Shown here one piece after another: positions 3,939 to 55,798 of a DNA stretch of 64,000 nt. Every line of letters begins with the position of its first letter. The first letter of the stretch is position 1. The translations under genes and the position numbers were made by a program. Location: contig NZ_CP159578.1 in the NCBI RefSeq assembly GCF_040536835.1, positions 992,001-1,056,000 of the forward strand. Direction: 5' to 3'. Origin of the DNA: Salinicola endophyticus (lineage in GTDB: Bacteria; Pseudomonadota; Gammaproteobacteria; Pseudomonadales; Halomonadaceae). The notes beneath the pieces are model-generated. The model saw only the letters and a program-made list of their open reading frames with translations, was not told where the DNA came from and made no database searches.

Positions 3939-4628
3939 TCAGGCGTCCGGCGCGAGTGTCCAGGTGCGCCCGGCCATGGGGCAGCTCAGCGGCCCACGCC
4001 GCTGCATCAGCCAGTCGATCACATCGAGCGGCTGCAGCGCCTCGCCAACGGTGTCGGGAGCCGCCGCTAGCGTGAGACGTCGCGCCCCCGGGGTGGGCGC
4101 AGTGCCCAGTACCAGGGCCACCGCCGCCGCTGGCGTATGCGGGGCGAAGTCGGCGAAGCGTGCCGGTACCGGCTGGTCGCCGAACACCACCAGCAGGCGC
4201 TCGGTACCGTCGCTGAGGTACCCCAGCGCCTCGGCCATCAGTGCCGCCCACTCCGCGCCGCTGGCGGCCACCGCCTGCTGGCTGCGGCGATTGCCGCTGG
4301 CGATCGAGTAGACGCCGATGATGGCGTTGTGTACCGACAGGCCGAAGCGTGCCGGTGACAGCGGCTCGCCGGCATCGATGGCGTAGAGCATCTCCAGCGT
4401 GCGCTCGCCGTCGCCGTGGCGTGAGGCGTGCAGCACATCCAGCTCGGCCGCCGGGTCGAGCGCGATCAGCATGTCGCACACGGCGCGGCCGATCAGATTG
4501 AGGCGGCGGCGCAGCATCGATGGAATTGCCGTGCCAGCGGGCTTGGCGCTGGTCTCCAGGCGCGCCTCACCGGCCGCTTCGCGGTGCGGGGTCCAGCCTC
4601 GCCACTCCTGAACGAATAGCTCCGTCAT
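3939..4628 (-). CDS. Beta-ketoacyl synthase chain-length-factor-like protein (PF13723 type)
   Basis: A 229-residue protein of the size and sequence type of the stand-alone N-terminal ketoacyl-synthase-like domain used as chain length factor in aryl polyene loci. Recognisable are RRRLNLIGRAVCDM near residue 41, HASRHGDGERT near 86, and SVHNAIIGVYSIASGNRR near 119, where a catalytic cysteine would be expected but none is seen. It is expected to pair with the true ketosynthase, presumably encoded left of the window, and set polyene length. It is the first gene of the operon visible here. The 197-bp gap before the ACP gene carries a short hairpin repeat where many APE loci have an acyltransferase and a second ACP. 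Confidence 0.8.
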   Translation of the reverse strand: MTELFVQEWRGWTPHREAAGEARLETSAKPAGTAIPSMLRRRLNLIGRAVCDMLIALDPAAELDVLHASRHGDGERTLEMLYAIDAGEPLSPARFGLSVHNAIIGVYSIASGNRRSQQAVAASGAEWAALMAEALGYLSDGTERLLVVFGDQPVPARFADFAPHTPAAAVALVLGTAPTPGARRLTLAAAPDTVGEALQPLDVIDWLMQRRGPLSCPMAGRTWTLAPDA

Positions 4629-4680
4629 GCGCGGTGTCGACAGTCCTGGTCGTGAAAACGAGCGTGAAAACGAGTGTTAC

Positions 4681-4695
4681 ATCCGTGTCACGGAT
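4681..4695. promoter_or_regulatory. Perfect 15-bp palindrome upstream of the aryl-polyene operon (possible operator)
   Basis: ATCCGTGTCACGGAT is a perfect inverted repeat around a central T. It lies 53 bp upstream of the first visible APE gene, where a repressor or activator site would be expected. No regulator gene is next to it, so the cognate protein is unknown. Confidence 0.35.
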
Positions 4696-5050
4696 CGACG
4701 CATCATAACGGAAAATGCGCCAGGCTCCGTGCAAGGTTTATGCATTTGCGCGGCGTGCGGGGATCAAGCGGGGCGTAAAGCGCCGGGCCTGAGCCCGGCG
4801 CGCCCGGGAAGGACGATTCCGCGGGCCTGGCAAGCCTACCCTCAGTCACCGCGTGCCGACTTGATCTGGGTTAACTAACGGGTGGCACCGGTCTGGTACG
4901 CCGCCAACCGAGCTGCCCTTTTCCCTCCTCGGTACGCCATACGCTGCGCCGGCCGGCTGCATAGTCAACAGACAACCTTAAATTAGCGGTGGCTGCGATC
5001 CGCCAAGCCTACGCATGCCGATGACGCTTGCCAACCCGAGCGTAAAAATG
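4696..5050. other. Intergenic stretch without recognisable gene
   Basis: I see no supported coding region here. The only structure is a GC-rich hairpin at 4780-4801 (GCGCCGGGC, loop CTGA, GCCCGGCGC) with no T-run on either side. I looked for a GacA-type upstream activating palindrome (TGTAAG...CTTACA) before the downstream RNA promoter and did not find one. Confidence 0.5.
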
Positions 5051-5080
5051 TTGTACAAGGATTTTACGTGGTGCTATCAT
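5051..5080 (+). promoter_or_regulatory. Sigma-70-type promoter of the CsrB-like RNA
   Basis: TTGTAC (5051-5056) and TATCAT (5075-5080), separated by 18 bp, make a good -35/-10 pair. Transcription would start at about 5086-5088, a few bases before the first GGA hairpin of the RNA. Confidence 0.6.
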
Positions 5081-5086
5081 TGCCTA

Positions 5087-5256
5087 GGTAAACTTAGAGG
5101 TCAGGAAGGCCTCATGCGCAGGAAGCGCCCACGCCAGGGATGGCGTGCCGCCGCAGGGAAGCGCGGCAAGGCGGCAAGTTGCGATGCCGTCGAGTGAAGG
5201 GTTCGACCCGATAGGTTCTCTTGGATGCCCGGCTTCTCGCTGGGCATTGTTTTTTT
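5087..5256 (+). ncRNA. CsrB/RsmX-Y-Z-type regulatory small RNA (CsrA/RsmA-sequestering), candidate
   Basis: About 170 nt between a sigma-70-like promoter and a strong terminator, with no plausible reading frame. Four consecutive hairpins each present a GGA in the loop: 5097-5113 (GAGGTC/AGGAA/GGCCTC), 5116-5128 (GCGC/AGGAA/GCGC), 5130-5147 (CACGCC/AGGGAT/GGCGTG) and 5150-5167 (GCCGC/AGGGAA/GCG, bulged C, GGC). Further stems lie at 5170-5191 and 5199-5209, and a single-stranded TTGGATG precedes the terminator stem. CAGGAAG and CAGGGA/TG in loops are the known binding sites for CsrA/RsmA dimers, and regularly spaced GGA loops define the CsrB/RsmZ class. The RNA would therefore titrate CsrA and affect carbon storage and motility. 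It is convergent with the ABC permease gene. The structural call is strong; family membership is from architecture only. Confidence 0.8.
5226..5256 (+). terminator. Rho-independent terminator of the small RNA
   Basis: Stem TGCCCGGC (5226-5233), loop TTCTC, stem GCTGGGCA (5239-5246), then TTGTTTTTTT. It has an 8-bp GC-rich stem with one G-T pair and a seven-T tract. Confidence 0.9.
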
Positions 5257-5326
5257 GGACATCGTTTTTTTGTGGATATCGTTTTCTACGGACAGCCGTT
5301 TTGCGCAACGCATCAGTGGCCGTGGG

Positions 5327-6823
5327 TCAGCGGCTGCACGGATCGTCGACCGGCACCTCGCGGGGGCGGAAGCGGCGGGCGGCGGCGTCGACCGCGATGT
5401 TCAGCCCGGCGGTGATCAGCAGCAGAAAGAGTGCCTGATCGAACATCAGGTATTCGAAGCTGGAGTCGATGTAGAACCCCAGCGTGGCGACGCCGAGCAT
5501 GCCCAGCAGGGCGGTCTCGCGCAGGATCACTTCGGCGCGGTAGCACAGCAGTGCCAGCAGGTTGGGGTAGAGCCGCGGCAGCAGCTCGTAGGCGTAGCGC
5601 CCCGAGGCCGGCAGCCCGGGCATGCCCGGGGTGAGGCCGTCGGCGTGGCGCGCCACCAGAAAGGCGATCAGCGCGCCGTTGTGCAGCGCCAGTGCCAGCC
5701 ACGCCGGCAGCATCGACGGCCCCAAGAGCAGCAGGAAGACGAATGCTAGCATCAGCTCCGGGGTCGAGCGCACCATCACCAGCGCCAGGCGGCCCAGCCC
5801 GCGGCTGGCGCGGTTGCCGAAATGGCGGCTGGCCAGCGGCCATAGCAGCAGCGCCAGCACCAGACTCCCCACCATCCCCATCAGCGCCAGCAGCAGGGTG
5901 TTGCCGATCGCCGGCAGCAGGTCCGGCATGTCGCGCACCCAGGCCAGCAGCCCTGTCAGGTCGCCGGTGAGCAGCGGGGCCGGCCACAGGTCGTGGCTGA
6001 CGAAGCGCCACAGCAGCGCACCATCGACGTCGGGCCAGGGCCCGAGCCAGTAGAGCCCGGCGATCAGCAGAAGCGGCAGCAGGCGGCGATGCCCCCACCA
6101 GTGCAGCGTCGCGATCAGCAGGTAGAATATCCACAGCAGGGCCCCGGCCTCGCCGAAGCGGCCCTCACGGAAGGCGCTCTCGAGATAGAACCCCAGCGTT
6201 GGCAGACCGACGAAGCCGAGCAGCACGCTGGCGCGCATGGCGCACTCGAAACGGTAGCGGGTGTAGCTCGCCAGGCGCTCCCACACCAGCGGCAGTTCGG
6301 CATAGATGAAGCGTGACAGGCGATCGACACCGGCGGGCAGCGCAGCCGAGGGCGCGCGCGGGGTCAGCTCGAGGATCTCGGCGTAGACCTTGGCGAAGAT
6401 GCCGGTGTAGGGGATCGCCAGCGCGGCCAGCGCGGTGACCGCCGAGAGGCCGAACACCTGCAGGAACAGCAGCGCCCAGAACAGCTCGTGGATCGCGCGG
6501 ACGAAGGCGCACAGGGCGCGCAGTGTGCGCGATCGCGGGAAGACCAGCGCCAGCGGGAACCCCAGCAGTGCGCCGAGGAAGGTACCCCACAGCGCCACGC
6601 TGACGGTGAGCGCGATCGCGTGGAGCGGGTTCTCCAGGGCCAGCCAGTCGGGCCAGGCCAGGCCGCGGGCCATGCGCCACAGCTCCGCCCAGGGGTCGGC
6701 GGCGGTGATCTCGAGGTCGGCCAGCGGCAGCAGCAGCAGACAGAGTGTCACCAGCGCCAGTGAGCGCCGGGCGAGGGTGAGGCCGGGGCTGTCACCGCGC
6801 AGCCAGCCGGGTGCCGCGCTCAT
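5327..6823 (-). CDS. PhnE-type ABC transporter permease, two permease modules fused in one chain
   Basis: A 498-residue integral membrane protein that repeats the PhnE-like permease twice. The first module (about 20-260) has the coupling-loop region near FAKVYAEILELTPRAPSAAL and GLPTLGFYLESAF; the second (about 290-485) has MGMVGSLVLALLLWPLASRH, then GMPGLPASGRYAYELLPRLY and GVATLGFYIDSSFEY. The paired LGFY signatures show the duplication. Ordinary PhnE proteins are about 260-280 residues and dimerise, so this chain probably forms the whole channel. Its ATG overlaps the ATPase stop by 4 bp. With the ATPase and binding protein it forms an importer of the phosphonate/phosphite/selenate superfamily; the substrate is not established. 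Confidence 0.85.
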   Translation of the reverse strand: MSAAPGWLRGDSPGLTLARRSLALVTLCLLLLPLADLEITAADPWAELWRMARGLAWPDWLALENPLHAIALTVSVALWGTFLGALLGFPLALVFPRSRTLRALCAFVRAIHELFWALLFLQVFGLSAVTALAALAIPYTGIFAKVYAEILELTPRAPSAALPAGVDRLSRFIYAELPLVWERLASYTRYRFECAMRASVLLGFVGLPTLGFYLESAFREGRFGEAGALLWIFYLLIATLHWWGHRRLLPLLLIAGLYWLGPWPDVDGALLWRFVSHDLWPAPLLTGDLTGLLAWVRDMPDLLPAIGNTLLLALMGMVGSLVLALLLWPLASRHFGNRASRGLGRLALVMVRSTPELMLAFVFLLLLGPSMLPAWLALALHNGALIAFLVARHADGLTPGMPGLPASGRYAYELLPRLYPNLLALLCYRAEVILRETALLGMLGVATLGFYIDSSFEYLMFDQALFLLLITAGLNIAVDAAARRFRPREVPVDDPCSR

Positions 6824-7512
6824 GCAGAGGTGGCGACGCTGGTCGAGGCGGCCGCGGCGTCGGGGTAGAGCGCGTCGAGATCGGCCAGGGTGAGCTCACG
6901 GCTGGCGGCATCCAGCTGAACCTGGCCGTCGCGCAGCCCGATCACCCGGTCGAAGTGACTCAGCGCCAGGCGGTGCTGATGCAGCGCGATGACGCTGGTG
7001 GCGTGCTGGCGCTGGATCCGCTGCAGCAGACGCAGGGCCTGGTGCGGATCGACGCTGGCCAGCGGCTCGTCACCCAGGAAGACGTCGCGCTGCTGATAGA
7101 GCGCGCGGGCGATCGCCACGCGCTGACGCTGCCCACCGGAGAGACGCTCCACCGGACGGCGCAGCAGGCCGTCGAGGCCGAGCTCGGCGCACAGCGCTTC
7201 GACCGCCTGCCAGGCGTCACGATTCGGCCGCAGTAGGTTGAGCAGGTTGGCCAGGGCGCCGTGGCGCTCCAGCCGGCCCATATAGACGTTGTGGTAGACC
7301 GAGAGCAGCGGCACCAGGCCGTGGCTCTGCGGGCACCAGGCGGCGTGCGGTTCGAGCCGGGCGCGGATCGCACTCAGCAGAGTCGACTTGCCGGCACCGC
7401 TCTGGCCCAACAGCGCCACCTGCTCTCCGTGTTCCAGGGTCAGCGACAGCCCCGGCAGCACGACCCGGTCGGCGTGCCCCAGGTCGTCACCGTCGAAGCG
7501 AAGGAGTGTCAC
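6820..7512 (-). CDS. PhnC-type ABC transporter ATP-binding protein
   Basis: A 230-residue ATPase with Walker A GQSGAGKST (about 36-44), Q-loop around CPQSHG, signature LSGGQRQRVAIARAL (about 124-138) and Walker B VFLGDEPLASVD with the catalytic Glu. It energises import through the adjoining fused permease. The start codon is GTG (7512-7510), placed 6 bp after the binding-protein gene. The 3' end overlaps the permease start (ATGA). The order binding protein - ATPase - permease is that of phnD-phnC-phnE-type operons. Confidence 0.88.
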   Translation of the reverse strand: MTLLRFDGDDLGHADRVVLPGLSLTLEHGEQVALLGQSGAGKSTLLSAIRARLEPHAAWCPQSHGLVPLLSVYHNVYMGRLERHGALANLLNLLRPNRDAWQAVEALCAELGLDGLLRRPVERLSGGQRQRVAIARALYQQRDVFLGDEPLASVDPHQALRLLQRIQRQHATSVIALHQHRLALSHFDRVIGLRDGQVQLDAASRELTLADLDALYPDAAAASTSVATSA

Positions 7513-7518
7513 GCGGTC

Positions 7519-8370
7519 TCAGCGCAGCAGGCCGATCGACTCACCGACCTCTTCGATCGGCGCATAGTCGGCGTTGCTGGCCGGGATGAAGCCGGAGCGC
7601 GGGAAACTCTCGAGCAGGGCGGGGTCGGTCATCTCGAGCAGCGCCTTCTGCACCTTGGCACTGAAGCCCTCGCCGTAGCGCGCGTCGACGTCGCCGCGCA
7701 GGGTCCACTGGTAGTCGGGATAGGTGGGCGACTTCCAGATCACTGCGACCTTGTCGGTGTCCACGCGGCCATCGGCCACCGCCGCCTGCCATACGGTGAA
7801 GTTGACCGCGCCGACGTCATAGGTGCCGGACTCGACCAGGGCGATGGTGCGCGAGTGGTCGCCGGAGAAGCCGACCCGCGAGAACACCTTGTCGGGAGCC
7901 GCATCGAAGCGCTGGCGGATGAAGTGCTCAGGCATCAGTCGCCCCGAGGTCGAGGTCTTGGCGCCGAAGGTGAAACTGTGGCCGCGCACCGCCTCGGGCA
8001 GCGCCGTCTCGGAAGGGGCGATGTCGGCTTGCGTGTTGGCGATGAAGTAGCTGCGGAACTCGGCGTCCTCCTGGCCCTGGGCAATGGCCTGGGAGCCGGG
8101 CACCAGACGGCGGGCCTGAACCCCGGAGAGGCCACCGAACCAGGCCAGCTGCACCTGGTCGTTGCGGAAGGCGGTCACCGCCGCGCCGTAGGAGGTCACC
8201 GGCACGTACTCGACCTCGACGCCGAGCTTGTCCGAGAGGTAATCGGCGACCTTGGAGAAGCGCTCGACCAGGCGCGACTGGTCCTCGTCCGGAATCGCGG
8301 TGAAGCGGAAAGTGTCGGCTTGCGAGACGCTGCCGACCAGCATCAGGACCAGAGCGAACAACCAGCGCAT
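7519..8370 (-). CDS. PhnD-like periplasmic binding protein (phosphonate or putative selenate ABC importer)
   Basis: A 283-residue secreted binding protein. It begins with a signal peptide (MRWLFALVLMLVGSVSQA-D), then the PhnD-type fold with ADYLSDKLGVEVEYVPVTSY (about 45-64), LAWFGGLSGVQARR (about 78-91) and the ligand-loop region FGAKTSTSGRLMPEHF. The Phe-Gly-Gly-Leu-Ser stretch and IPDEDQSRLVERF near the N-terminus remind me of the subfamily annotated as putative selenate binding proteins rather than classical PhnD, but I cannot verify that. The ATG at 8370, preceded by GAGGTCA, is chosen over an upstream in-frame ATG because it gives a clean signal peptide. Confidence 0.8.
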   Translation of the reverse strand: MRWLFALVLMLVGSVSQADTFRFTAIPDEDQSRLVERFSKVADYLSDKLGVEVEYVPVTSYGAAVTAFRNDQVQLAWFGGLSGVQARRLVPGSQAIAQGQEDAEFRSYFIANTQADIAPSETALPEAVRGHSFTFGAKTSTSGRLMPEHFIRQRFDAAPDKVFSRVGFSGDHSRTIALVESGTYDVGAVNFTVWQAAVADGRVDTDKVAVIWKSPTYPDYQWTLRGDVDARYGEGFSAKVQKALLEMTDPALLESFPRSGFIPASNADYAPIEEVGESIGLLR

Positions 8371-8488
8371 GGCGTGACCTCGAATAGGGGAGTCGAATAG
8401 GCGTGTCATCGGGCAGGCGCGCGACCGTACCTCGGCATGCATGATAACCGCTTTTGCCCCCGATCTTTAAGATACCGCACCGTGCGCC

Positions 8489-9349: not shown

Positions 9350-9584
9350 GCTAGCGGTGAGTCTCCTGGCAGCGGGGCGTGCCATCACGGTTTGACACAA
9401 ACCCTGCATCCTAGCCCGCGGCGCCGGTGGCGCCAAGCGATGCCGGCCGAGCGCGCGACCGCAAGCGGTAAGTTAGTGACCGAATCGGCCGCTGTCGCAG
9501 GCATATGATGCGCAAGTCGCGTGTCAACTCGGCCCGGAATGGCGTATTTTATTCGTAAATTAACCACACAAGCGGAGAGAGGCA
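9350..9584. promoter_or_regulatory. Divergent hexR/zwf control region
   Basis: This 235-bp gap separates hexR (minus) and zwf (plus). An AT-rich patch at about 9543-9565 (TATTTTATTCGTAAATTAAC) lies just upstream of the zwf ribosome site GGAGAGAGG and is the likeliest promoter/operator core. I could not find a perfect HexR palindrome of the TGTAAT...ATTACA kind. Confidence 0.35.
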
Positions 9585-28763: not shown

Positions 28764-28927
28764 GGTATCCATCGTCATGGCGTCGTTGGCGATGCCCCAG
28801 AGTATCGCACGCTTGCCGCATGCTCTCGACGTTTTCGGTGCCGCGCCCTGCGGGCTATCGACTAGGCTGTCAGCGCGGCGCGACGGTGCGAGTGGCACGG
28901 GCGGCAAATATCGAAGAGGGAGTCGAC

Positions 28928-38583: not shown

Positions 38584-40182
38584 ATGGTAAAGGCCGCGGT
38601 TCAGGGAAGAAGAGCCCAACACGATGACCCGAGCGAACGGCCGCTCTCCCGTGACTCCGTGCCGCGTGGGCCAAGCATGCAGACATCCTTGCCGCGACTG
38701 CGGCCGGTCGCCCCCGGGCGCGACCGGCGTGTCCTGTTCGTCACCACCGAGATAGCCGATTTCATCAAGGCAGGTGGGCTTGGCGATGTCTCCGCGGCGC
38801 TGCCGCGTGCGCTGAAGCCTGGGTACGATGTACGCGTGCTGATGCCCGGCTACCGCCAGATTCTGACCGCCGGCAAGCCTATCGTACGGGTGGCACAGCT
38901 GCCTGCCAGTCACGCCTTGCCGGCCTGCGAAATTGGGCGCTTGGTGTGCGATGACGGGCTGATCGTCTATCTGGTGCTGTGCCCGTCGCTCTACGATCGG
39001 GACGGCAATGCCTACGGTGACGACTTCGGCGTCGGCTGGGCCGATAACGACATCCGTTTCGCGCGTCTGGCCCTGGCCGCCGCGGCGATCGTCAACGATC
39101 CGGCGCTGCTCGAGTGGCAGGTGGATCTTTTGCATCTCAACGACTGGGCCACCGGCCTCACCGCCGGCTATGTGCGCTGGCTGGGGCGGCGTTACGTGCC
39201 TTCGGTCTACACCATCCACAATCTCGCCTATCAGGGCGTGTTCGGGGCCGATCGCCTGGAGCCGCTGGGCATTCCGCCCAGCGCCTTCCACATCGATGGC
39301 GTCGAGTATTACGGTCAGCTCTCGTTCATGAAAACGGGGCTCTCCTACGCCTCCCACGTCACCACCGTCAGCAACAACTACGCCCGCGAGATCACCACGC
39401 CCGAGTTCGGCTGCGGGCTGGATGGCCTGCTCGCCAAGCGCGCGCTGGAGGGGCGGCTCAGCGGCCTGCTCAACGGTATCGACGACCGCTGGGATCCGCG
39501 CCACGATACCCATCTGTCGCCCAACTTCGGCATCAACGACTGGCACGGCAAGCGTGCCAACACCCAACGCGTGCGGCGCATGTTCGGGCTCGACCCGAGC
39601 GGCGGGCCGCTGTTCGCGGTGGTCTCCCGGCTGGTGGCCCAGAAGGGGCTCGACCTCACCTGCGAGATCGCCGACACCCTGGTCGGTGCCGGCGGACAGT
39701 TAGTCGTGATCGGGCGCGGTGAATATGCCATCGAGCAGTCCTTGGTGGCCCTGGCGGCGCGCTATCCCGGCCAGATCGGGGTCAATATCGGTTTCGACGA
39801 GGGCGAGGCGCGCCAGATCTACGCCGGCAGTGACTTCCTGCTGATGCCGTCACGCTTCGAACCCTGTGGCTTGAGCCAGCTCTACGCCCAGCGCTTCGGT
39901 TCGCTGCCGATCGCCCATCGTACCGGTGGCCTTGCCGACACCATTCAGGACGGCATCAATGGGCTGCTGTTCGACGAGATGACCCTGGAGGCGTATCGCG
40001 CCACGCTGCGCCGCGCCTTCGATCTGTTCCATGCCACCGACCTGTTCTACGCCATGCGCCGTGCCGCCATGGCCGGGCGTCTGCACTGGCGCCAGGCGGT
40101 GGTGCCTTATCGTCGGCTCTACGCCGAGCTGCTGGCGGAGACCACGCCCGCCACCGGTAGCTACCACGGCAGCGTCCGATGA
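38584..40182 (+). CDS. glgA: Glycogen synthase (ADP-glucose type, GT5)
   Basis: A 532-residue glycosyltransferase that extends alpha-1,4-glucan from a nucleotide sugar. The ADP-glucose-binding motif appears as IKAGGLGDVSAALPRAL (about 60-76), with LHLNDWATGLTAGYV and VYTIHNLAYQGVFG in the N-domain. VVSRLVAQKGLDL and MPSRFEPCGLSQLYAQRFGS (C-domain, catalytic Glu) are also typical. The ATG at 38584 has a strong GGGAGG site seven bases away; an ATG at 38677 would remove a 31-residue non-conserved leader and is a fair alternative. No ADP-glucose pyrophosphorylase gene is in the window. Its stop overlaps the next ATG (ATGA). Confidence 0.93.
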   Translation: MVKAAVQGRRAQHDDPSERPLSRDSVPRGPSMQTSLPRLRPVAPGRDRRVLFVTTEIADFIKAGGLGDVSAALPRALKPGYDVRVLMPGYRQILTAGKPIVRVAQLPASHALPACEIGRLVCDDGLIVYLVLCPSLYDRDGNAYGDDFGVGWADNDIRFARLALAAAAIVNDPALLEWQVDLLHLNDWATGLTAGYVRWLGRRYVPSVYTIHNLAYQGVFGADRLEPLGIPPSAFHIDGVEYYGQLSFMKTGLSYASHVTTVSNNYAREITTPEFGCGLDGLLAKRALEGRLSGLLNGIDDRWDPRHDTHLSPNFGINDWHGKRANTQRVRRMFGLDPSGGPLFAVVSRLVAQKGLDLTCEIADTLVGAGGQLVVIGRGEYAIEQSLVALAARYPGQIGVNIGFDEGEARQIYAGSDFLLMPSRFEPCGLSQLYAQRFGSLPIAHRTGGLADTIQDGINGLLFDEMTLEAYRATLRRAFDLFHATDLFYAMRRAAMAGRLHWRQAVVPYRRLYAELLAETTPATGSYHGSVR

Positions 40183-41468
40183 GTGGCGTCGACAGCGGTG
40201 CAACGTCCGCCGCCGCGGCCTACGATTTCGGTGCTCTGCGTTGGTGGCTGATGGCGTCGATGGCGCCGCCGCCTGGCGTGCCCGACGACAGCGACTGGCG
40301 CTGGGACGACGGCGACTGGATGCGGGTGCGCGGCGCGCGCCACCAGGGAGATCTGCCGCTCGCCTTCTACTGTCTCGATGCCGCCGAGTGGTATGCCTCG
40401 CGCTTCTCGCCACCGCTGCGCTGGGACGCCCTGATCCAGGAGCTGGTGCCCTACGTGGCGGATCTCGGCTTTACCCATGTCGCCTTCGATGCGGCGCTGC
40501 TGGCCGAAGGCGACGCTACGATCCGCGGTGTGGTCGAAACCTGTCATATCGCGGGTGTCGGGGTGGTGGTGAGTCAGCCGACAGGCACGGCCCAGAGCCT
40601 CGAGCGCTGCCGTCGGCTGCACGTCGACGGCGTGTACACGCCGGCCGACGAGGCCCAGGCCGGCTGCTGCCGGCTGTTCGTCGATGACGGCCGGGCCGAT
40701 GTGATCCTCGCTTTTCGGCCCGCCTGGCAGGCAGCAATGAGCGACTATCTGGCGCGTCCGCCGCTGTCGCGCTGTCGGCATCACGCCCAGTGGATCGCGG
40801 CCCTGACGCCGGCGCCCAAGGGGCGTGGTCTGCTGGCACAGCTACCGGCGCCGACGGTGCCCCTGGGCGCGTGGCGCCAGCGCGTGCATGGTGACGCCTG
40901 GCAGCGTTTCGCCACCCTGCGGGCGGCACTCGGCATGATGTGGGCGCTGCCCGGCGAGAAGTGGCTGGGGATGGGCGTCGAGCTGGGCCAGGTGCTGGCC
41001 GAGCGCTTCCCCGAGGCGATCCACTGGCCGCTGCTGTTCGAGAGCCGGCACGCCGGCATGCTGCGGCTGGTGGCCGACCTCAACCGGCTCTACGTCAACG
41101 AGCCGGCGTTGCAGATCCGCGACGACGGCGACAACGGTTTCGAGTGGCTGGTGCCCGACGATGGCCACAACAGCGTAGTGGTGTTTGCGCGGCATGCCGA
41201 CAGCGGCCATGCGACGCTGATCTGTGTCAGTAATTTCCAGGCCTGCGTGCATCAGACCTATCGCTTCGGTGTCCCTGAGGGCGGCCGCTGGCGCGAGATA
41301 TTCAACAGCGACAGCGTCTTCTACGCCGGTAGCAACGTGGGCAACGGACGCAGTCTCAAGGCTGGTCCCGAACCCAGCCATGGCCAGGCGCAGTCGCTGA
41401 CGCTGACGGTGCCGCCAATGGCTACGCTCTTTCTACGCCATGAAGTCTGGCATGGAGACACCCCATGA
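40179..41468 (+). CDS. GlgB-like protein lacking the catalytic core residues (probable pseudoenzyme)
   Basis: A 429-residue protein similar to the C-terminal part of branching enzyme. Its segment with ALGMMWALPGEKWLGMGVEL, SRHAGMLRLVADLNRLYVNEPAL and FNSDSVFYAGSNVGNG aligns with GlgB (50993-53215): [57 protein letters not shown]. The GlgB regions with nucleophile Asp (DGLRVDAV), acid/base Glu (IAEEST) and [11 protein letters not shown] have no counterpart; the last is replaced by LGAWRQRVHGDAW. The N-terminal CBM48 domain is also missing. Part of the barrel start survives (LIQELVPYVADLGFTHVAF). Being coupled on both sides (ATGA to glgA and treZ) and intact, it looks selected. A glucan-binding or regulatory role is inferred. 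Confidence 0.75.
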   Translation: MSGVDSGATSAAAAYDFGALRWWLMASMAPPPGVPDDSDWRWDDGDWMRVRGARHQGDLPLAFYCLDAAEWYASRFSPPLRWDALIQELVPYVADLGFTHVAFDAALLAEGDATIRGVVETCHIAGVGVVVSQPTGTAQSLERCRRLHVDGVYTPADEAQAGCCRLFVDDGRADVILAFRPAWQAAMSDYLARPPLSRCRHHAQWIAALTPAPKGRGLLAQLPAPTVPLGAWRQRVHGDAWQRFATLRAALGMMWALPGEKWLGMGVELGQVLAERFPEAIHWPLLFESRHAGMLRLVADLNRLYVNEPALQIRDDGDNGFEWLVPDDGHNSVVVFARHADSGHATLICVSNFQACVHQTYRFGVPEGGRWREIFNSDSVFYAGSNVGNGRSLKAGPEPSHGQAQSLTLTVPPMATLFLRHEVWHGDTP

Positions 41469-55033: not shown

Positions 55034-55798
55034 CTACTCTTCATACTGCCAAAGTAGGCCCCCGTCTACCGGCAAGGACGTTCCGGTCATGTAATCGGCA
55101 TCCTCGGAGGCGAGAAACGCCACCACGCCGGCGACATCTTCCGAGCGCCCAAGGCGGTTGAGCGGGATATTGCCGAGTAGATGCCCGAGCTTCTCGGGAT
55201 CCTCGTCGAGGGCGCTGTTCATGGGCGTCTTGATCGCCCCGGGGGCGACGCTATTGACGGTGATTCCCAGCGGCGCCAGCTCGATCGCCAGGTTGCGCGT
55301 GAGCATGCGCAGCCCGCCCTTGGCCAGGCAGTAGCTGGTGAAGCCGGGGAAGGGCAGATCCTCGTGCACCGAGCTCAGATTGATCACCCGCCCACCGCGG
55401 CCGACGCCGCGCAGATAGCGCACGAATGCCTGAGTGGTGAAGAATACCCCCTTGAGATTGGTATCGAGTACCTTGTCGTAATCCGCTTCGGTCACCTCCC
55501 AGAAGGGCGCCTCGATCTCCAGCCCGGCGTTGTTGACCAGAATGTCGAGCCGGCCCAGAGCCGCCACGCTGTCGTCGATCAGCCGGCGGTTGGTCTCCAC
55601 CTGGGAGATATCGCCGGTGACGATCGCGGCGCGGCGGCCGTGGCGACGCACGCGCTCGGCGGTCTCCTCGGCGCGCTCGGAGGGGCGGCTGCCGCTGACC
55701 ACGATGTCGGCGCCCTCCTGGGCCAGGCGTTCGGCGATGGCGCGGCCGATGCCCTGGGTGCTGCCGGTGACCAGTGCTACCTTGCCTGCGAGACGCAT
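55034..55798 (-). CDS. SDR-family oxidoreductase, glucose 1-dehydrogenase-like
   Basis: A 254-residue classical short-chain dehydrogenase: TGSTQGIGRAIAERL (about 11-25), NNAGLEIEAPFWEV near 91, catalytic Ser in INLSSVHEDLPFPGF and YCLAK (about 157-161), and the C-terminal TGTSLPVDGGL. SSVHE and PGFTSYCLAKGG resemble glucose 1-dehydrogenases, which would fit glucose released by the trehalase, but the substrate cannot be decided from sequence. AGGAG precedes the ATG. It is 35 bp upstream of treF in the same direction, so the two may form an operon. Confidence 0.87.
   Translation of the reverse strand: MRLAGKVALVTGSTQGIGRAIAERLAQEGADIVVSGSRPSERAEETAERVRRHGRRAAIVTGDISQVETNRRLIDDSVAALGRLDILVNNAGLEIEAPFWEVTEADYDKVLDTNLKGVFFTTQAFVRYLRGVGRGGRVINLSSVHEDLPFPGFTSYCLAKGGLRMLTRNLAIELAPLGITVNSVAPGAIKTPMNSALDEDPEKLGHLLGNIPLNRLGRSEDVAGVVAFLASEDADYMTGTSLPVDGGLLWQYEE

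Follow-up and report, generated by a model that had tools for sequence, protein, structure and literature searches.

The closest described counterparts of the RNA reported here are the CsrA/RsmA-sequestering RNAs of Pseudomonas (RsmX, RsmY and RsmZ) and of Escherichia coli (CsrB and CsrC). The Pseudomonas RNAs are short and free-standing (Rfam models of 121 and 133 positions), each with several successive hairpins that carry A(N)GGA in the loop and with an intrinsic terminator. CsrB and CsrC carry many sites, and the loop repeat of E. coli CsrB is CAGGANG. Activation by GacA/UvrY is usual for the class and is taken here as not defining it; the box recognised by UvrY/GacA is given as TGTAAGN6CTTACA (PMC4682653). 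Some bacteria have many sponge RNAs per genome, as in Azotobacter vinelandii with RsmZ1-7 and RsmY1-2 (PMC7366521, Table 1). In Halomonas anticariensis, GacS/GacA controls quorum sensing, exopolysaccharide and biofilm, and the same table of this 2020 review enters the sponge RNAs as “Unknown”. Titles and abstract openings from a literature search hold no pointer to CsrB-like RNAs of Halomonadaceae.

The locus described here lies in a genome of Salinicola (family Halomonadaceae, NCBI taxonomy), within a 64,000-nt stretch of DNA that was analysed as a whole (the window). Its product is very probably a small RNA with the same function as CsrB, RsmY and RsmZ, namely the sequestration of CsrA. The RNA is CsrB/RsmY/Z-like by anatomy and lies outside the Rfam families by score; the functional kind is known, and what is new is a Halomonas-family branch missed by Rfam. 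Like RsmX, RsmY and RsmZ, the predicted RNA (5084-5256, + strand; about 170 nt, with predicted ends) would be a short free-standing unit with a loop row and an intrinsic terminator, but it falls under the Rfam cut-offs, and the known GacA box is not found upstream of it. With CsrB and CsrC it shares CAGGANG repeats in its loops, yet it has four sites, no Rfam match at the cut-off and no UvrY box TGTAAGN6CTTACA (PMC4682653).

The surrounding gap of 698 nt (4629-5326) is bounded by two genes on the strand opposite to the RNA: one for a β-ketoacyl synthase N-terminal-domain protein (3939-4628; Pfam PF13723) and one for a PhnE-like ABC permease (5327-6823; TIGR01097, 204.5 bits, below the cut-off of 216.7). 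An ABC ATPase gene (6820-7512) adjoins the permease gene, and a substrate-binding protein of putative selenate type is encoded at 7519-8442 (TIGR04553, 392.3 bits, cut-off 250). The first-pass annotation had assigned the RNA its own promoter and a strong terminator, and both were recovered at the level of sequence. A predicted sigma-70 type promoter with an extended -10 (TGCTATCAT; 5052-5080, + strand) reads TGTACA-17-TATCAT with TG before the second hexamer, and its TGnTAnnnT and GTTGTAC motifs are kept in all six orthologs described below. The intrinsic terminator (5224-5256, + strand) has its stem at 5224-5248, followed by GTTTTTTT. Between 4500 and 5800 this promoter-like site is the only one (shuffles 0.2 ± 0.4), and terminator-like sites number two (shuffles 1.1 ± 1.1).

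Five hairpins, all on the + strand, lie between promoter and terminator: hairpin 1 (5097-5113, loop AGGAA), hairpin 2 (5116-5128, loop AGGAA), hairpin 3 (5130-5147, loop AGGGAT), hairpin 4 (5150-5167, loop with AGGGA) and hairpin 5 (5170-5191), which is without GGA in this genome. The GGA cores at 5104 (AGGAA), 5121 (AGGAA), 5138 (AGGGAT) and 5157 (AGGGAA) all fall in hairpin loops, with mean unpaired probabilities of 0.99, 1.00, 1.00 and 1.00 in ensemble folding, which bears out the earlier description of four hairpins displaying AGGAA or AGGGA(A/T). By contrast, the additional GGA core at the terminator is unpaired at only 0.06. A long-range closing helix is also predicted for the RNA from four sequences, and the segment 5051-5256 as a whole folds at -85.6 kcal/mol (z -2.45; equalled by 4 of 200 shuffles).

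Such a loop cluster is rare by chance. A mechanical scan for A(N)GGA in a loop of 4-9 nt closed by at least four pairs found 128 sites on both strands of the window (69 on + and 59 on -), and four sites within 110 nt occur in a single cluster, which is this RNA. Clusters of three are found elsewhere in the window only at 28919 (+) and 62141 (-). Among 5000 dinucleotide shuffles of 5084-5223, one gave four sites and nine gave three.

Orthologs were collected in several ways. A DNA similarity search matched 10 of 146 genomes at E 0.01, of which four were real: this genome itself (G000) and G015, G013 and G004, the three orthologs being 93, 91 and 84% identical. Reading by eye led to the rejection of the DNA-search matches L012, L013, L015 and L017, and L002, the best weak match in this genome, was likewise read and rejected. 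A covariance model, R1, was built from the four orthologs (it spans 5084-5251 here), and a search of 142 genomes with it added G016 at 51.2 bits and G006 at 48.0 bits; at E 0.05 it gave 18 matches, 6 accepted and 12 rejected, 10 of the latter having been read. Two of the rejected, L042 and L047, match by the terminator part alone. A third, L041 (G057), was set aside despite 37 bits (E 3.9e-9), since it has no A(N)GGA and is mainly a terminator match; R1 scores alone are therefore insufficient proof of kinship. L050 (G110), which may be a genuine case, scores 16.3 bits and has six A(N)GGA. In the window itself, the second-best R1 match (63731; 15.5 bits, E 8e-4) and another at 55094 (12.8 bits, E 6e-3) overlap ORFs and lack a loop row, which places R1 E-values of about 1e-3 within the noise. 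A pattern scan of named genomes returned seven loci, of which five are real (S. tamaricis F01, S. rhizosphaerae KCTC 32998, S. avicenniae S1-1-2, S. endophyticus CPA92 and “Gammaproteobacteria bacterium MFB021”) and two are taken as chance (Planctomycetota and Nisaea).

The gene neighborhood is shared as well. In all six orthologs the ketoacyl-synthase gene adjoins the RNA and the permease gene lies on its other side, a position that in G015 and G016 was seen only through longer loci with the same RNA (L056 and L054). The permease gene of G015 is further away, with a 42-residue partial copy in between. In S. tamaricis the permease homologue (L053 / L010) aligns in two pieces one base apart, reflecting either a frameshift or a sequencing error.

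Stem conservation was assessed on a MAFFT alignment of the six RNAs, made independently of structure; the six sequences are related, and the structure was derived from four of them. Within these limits, 93.6% of 219 stem cells are paired, as against 29-49% for slid versions of the structure, and 10 of 37 pairs have changed on both sides (4.2 ± 1.4 in shuffles; 0 of 500 as high). Paired cells and pairs changed on both sides amount to 97.1% and two in hairpin 1, 95.7% and none in hairpin 2, 97.1% and three in hairpin 3, 86.7% and two in hairpin 4, and 83.3% and two in hairpin 5; the terminator stem is paired throughout, with one such change. Hairpins 4 and 5 align poorly in G016 and G006, where hairpin 4 is weak. 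With both omitted, pairing reaches 98.0%, and 6 of 25 pairs are double changes, a number that none of 500 shuffles attained (2.1 ± 1.1). The count of “further pair types” is then at chance level (327 of 500).

The loops vary within narrow bounds. In five orthologs the sequence of loop 3 is AGGGA, AAGGA or ACGGA; in G016 it is AGGA with a one-base shift. The preferred CsrA target is given as ANGGA, and the variation at its free N is therefore allowed by the motif (PMC7366521). In hairpin 5 a GGA loop is absent from G000, G015 and G004, G013 has a poorly exposed GGA (0.30), and the place of the hairpin in G016 and G006 is taken by an exposed AGGA hairpin. In single-sequence folds, site 2 of G016 is unpaired at only 0.34 and site 4 of G006 at only 0.35.

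These data bear on what else the locus could be. An ordinary base-pairing small RNA of the Hfq type, in which the GGA loops would be incidental, is very unlikely: its U-rich terminator tail and promoter-terminator unit of about 170 nt would fit any small RNA, but the GGA loops are kept while the stems change on both sides, and the window has no second stretch of 110 nt with four of them.

That the locus belongs to a leader or a gene end, or codes for a protein, rather than giving a free RNA is extremely improbable. The first-pass annotation had denied coding potential. The RNA is crossed by + strand ORFs of 60, 97 and 64 aa and by - strand ORFs of 74 and 70 aa, the length of the 60-aa frame being kept in three close orthologs. 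Its start and length are the same in G000, G015 and G013, and in G004 it has 56 aa from a TTG. Against a coding role, this frame is not kept in G016 and G006, and its differences are spread evenly over codon positions (4, 7, 5 and 5, 6, 5; 10 and 9 residue changes), so that it shows no sign of coding constraint. As regards a leader or gene end, both neighboring genes are on the opposite strand and the RNA has promoter-like and terminator-like sites of its own.

A CsrB-like RNA remains the preferred reading, and its distribution is patchy. All 18 Salinicola genomes have the ketoacyl-synthase gene, and a search with R1 beside it located the RNA in 6 of them and in none of the other 12. A loop scan of the 1500 nt upstream gives clusters of 4, 4, 4, 4, 4 and 3 in the six genomes and at most two in the twelve, in agreement with R1; only some members of the genus therefore have the RNA. 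The first-pass annotation had named a lack of conserved loops in orthologous gaps as refuting its claim; 6 of 18 keep the loops with compensatory stem changes, and in the other 12 the RNA was not found at this place. The twelve vacant places, together with G012, which retains only the upstream element described below, and with the absence of GGA from hairpin 5 here as against its presence in G016 and G006, could point to a decaying CsrB-like gene with little or no expression in this genome. Such decay is highly unlikely, because promoter, loops and terminator are kept in G000, G015, G013 and G004 and the stems are kept through compensatory changes.

That similarity searches could miss the RNA had been anticipated, and this proved correct. 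No Rfam family, CsrB included, matches anywhere in the 64-kb window at gathering cut-offs. At the locus the RsmY model (RF00195) scores 19.6 bits against a cut-off of 57; the locus is the fourth-ranked place of this model in the genome, and weak RsmY matches also occur in 13 of 14 control genomes. The RsmZ model (RF00166, cut-off 44 bits) finds nothing at E 0.1 in this genome; across 29 genomes it gives weak matches in 22 at E 0.1 and in none over the cut-off, with weak matches also in 6 of 14 control genomes. On reading, the RsmY-model matches L018, L019, L022 and L025 of this genome look like gene ends with terminators, and the RsmZ-model matches L029, L031, L034, L068 and L076-L079 of sister genomes resemble gene ends by eye. 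Rfam 15 at its cut-offs yields only three tRNA matches at 20 loci, two of them to the same gene; Rfam-based annotation, which recognises none of the 20 apart from neighboring tRNAs, would therefore leave these genomes without csrB.

A candidate target protein is present. The genome has one csrA (C1:3402756-3402911). Its 65-aa product retains L4, R7 and R44, residues with roles in CsrA, and nine solved sequences match it, aligned over 44-58 residues. A GacA-like regulator gene is found too (NF007018, 253.6 bits, below the cut-off of 280, a model that also matches in 12 of 14 control genomes). It is followed on the same strand by a gene that, from its sequence, is presumably uvrC, and gacA then uvrC is the usual gene order. 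With four A(N)GGA sites in hairpin loops, covariation, a single csrA and this gene pair, the CsrB/RsmX-Y-Z-type reading of the first-pass annotation finds support.

The known regulatory box is another matter. Upstream of the RNA the best GacA box reaches 6-8 of 12 positions in all six orthologs, where 24-100 of 100 shuffles do as well, and an Fnr-like box is not above chance. What is conserved instead is a bipartite element, CAAGCCTA-N15-CTTGCCAA (5004-5034, + strand), whose two 8-mers and 15-nt spacing are identical in the six orthologs; its spacer is very different in G016 and G006 though the spacing is kept. One block follows the other at 23 bp, and the pair fits either a direct repeat CWWGCCWA or CAAG/CTTG arms. 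The window has a single copy of the element, which would be a putative factor site. Of 18 orthologous upstream regions, 7 contain it: the six with the RNA and G012 without it (L143), in which it is followed by sequence resembling, by eye, the end of the permease gene. The element in G012 may be a relic or serve another use.

A second block, GGGAAGGACGATTCC ... CAAGCCTA ... ACTTGATCTGGGTTAAC, lies upstream of the ketoacyl-synthase gene (about 4780-4895). It was recognised in 11 of 18 genomes by its own CAAGCCTA and combines an Fnr-like palindrome with the same 8-mer as the upstream element of the RNA; it is perhaps another small RNA or a leader.

Further CsrB-like RNAs exist in the genus. On reading, the weak RsmZ matches in sister genomes included CsrB-like RNAs, from which two models were made: R2 (six sequences) and R3 (three sequences). 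L032 (G009), L070 (G014), L074 and L075 also look CsrB-like by eye and have no model of their own; the first two resemble a fourth kind (“type 4”). With R2, every one of the 18 Salinicola genomes has a match, 45 places in total at E 0.01; sequences of 30 of these places were retrieved and inspected. R3 matches one place each in 17 of 18. In this genome R3 matches C1:1540416-1540542 (39.5 bits) and R2 matches C1:1541313-1541463 (71.1 bits). These type-3 and type-2 RNAs (L122, at G000:C1:1540416-1540640, and L092, both outside the window) are 0.8 kb apart near a tRNA gene, with a small ORF seemingly between them. By eye both have A(N)GGA rows and terminator-like hairpins at their ends, and as predicted from these features the genome has at least two more CsrB-like RNAs. 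They share loop motif, terminator and genome with the RNA at 5084-5256 and differ in their upstream motifs. R2 scores only 19.6 bits on the latter and R1 15.4 bits on the type-2 RNA here, both near noise, and common descent of these two is therefore unsupported. Two type-2 RNAs of G008 (C23:8859-9014 and 9374-9530; L080 and L098) lie 0.5 kb apart on one strand, a pair that resembles a local duplication.

Beyond Salinicola, R2 reaches other members of the family. At E 0.001 it matches 34 of 142 relatives (18 Salinicola, 15 others of the family and one of the order), which is 16 of the 124 relatives outside the genus; R3, run with stricter filters, matches 15 of the 142 at E 0.001 and nothing outside Salinicola. 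The best R2 loci of 12 of the 16 genomes were read and hold 6-11 A(N)GGA, counts that are not independent because R2 was trained on such motifs. Matches per genome number seven in G054, six in G035, five in G075, four in G030 and two in G076, and 19 further places in these five genomes have 4-10 A(N)GGA; folded one sequence at a time, they leave 1-6 of these motifs open. Several genomes thus appear to be multi-sponge as in Azotobacter vinelandii, a likeness in number between different bacteria. The GacA boxes, unlike the motif counts, are independent of the training of R2. Four of the 12 best loci have GacA boxes of 10-11 of 12 positions (0-2 of 100 shuffles) and eight have 7-9; among the 19 further loci seven have 10-12, one perfect (counts without shuffles). 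Many of these loci in other genera (L127-L138 and L157-L175) show a TTAACC-N2-GGTTA-like motif upstream of the RNA.

The Salinicola RNAs behave differently with respect to these boxes. Only 2 of 30 type-2 loci reach 9 of 12 positions of the GacA box (3 of 100 shuffles each) and none of 17 type-3 loci exceeds 8; the box is missing at the Salinicola sponge RNAs, which are therefore either GacA-free or served by GacA through another site. Type-2 loci (L080-L109) carry a palindrome of the TTGATNNNNATCAA kind, which we take to be an Fnr/Anr box, scoring 9 or 10 of 10 in its degenerate form at 25 of 30 and centred 17-19 nt before the model start, with seven perfect in the strict form (controls were single-base shuffles); at type-3 loci and at the RNA of the window it is not above chance. 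This suggests that type-2 sponge RNAs may be under oxygen control.

A working scheme can be proposed. The transcript of about 170 nt would fold into a row of short hairpins, four of which would display the motif recognised by CsrA, A(N)GGA, in their loops. Since a CsrA dimer binds a pair of loops, one RNA could hold about two dimers, and accumulation of the RNA would sequester CsrA and free CsrA-repressed mRNAs. The switch might be a factor acting at CAAGCCTA-N15-CTTGCCAA, or GacA acting at a site unlike the known box. The RNA would be one of at least three such RNAs in the genome. More tentatively, and with clear reservations, Halomonadaceae might regulate CsrA through an enlarged repertoire of CsrB-like RNAs, numbering at least three here and as many as seven in other genomes, that respond to different inputs: in several genera through GacA boxes, in Salinicola through the Fnr/Anr-like box of type 2, and at the present locus through CAAGCCTA-N15-CTTGCCAA. 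The idea of different inputs is weakened because the GacA box is missing at all three Salinicola RNA types, where GacA may read another site. If it were true, CsrA titration would add up several signals in place of a single Gac line. The loci offer an example from nature of how sponge RNAs multiply and exchange their promoters, and they are candidates for the gap in Halomonas anticariensis, making the missing link testable in the family.

One association suggested by the first-pass annotation did not hold up, namely the link to glycogen metabolism: glycogen and trehalose genes are indeed in the window, but they lie at least 33 kb away and are therefore no evidence. Among them, the ORF at 40179-41468 (+ strand) matches glycogen branching enzyme in its C-terminal part alone (model positions 465-744 out of 745) and sits between a starch-synthase-like gene and TreZ.
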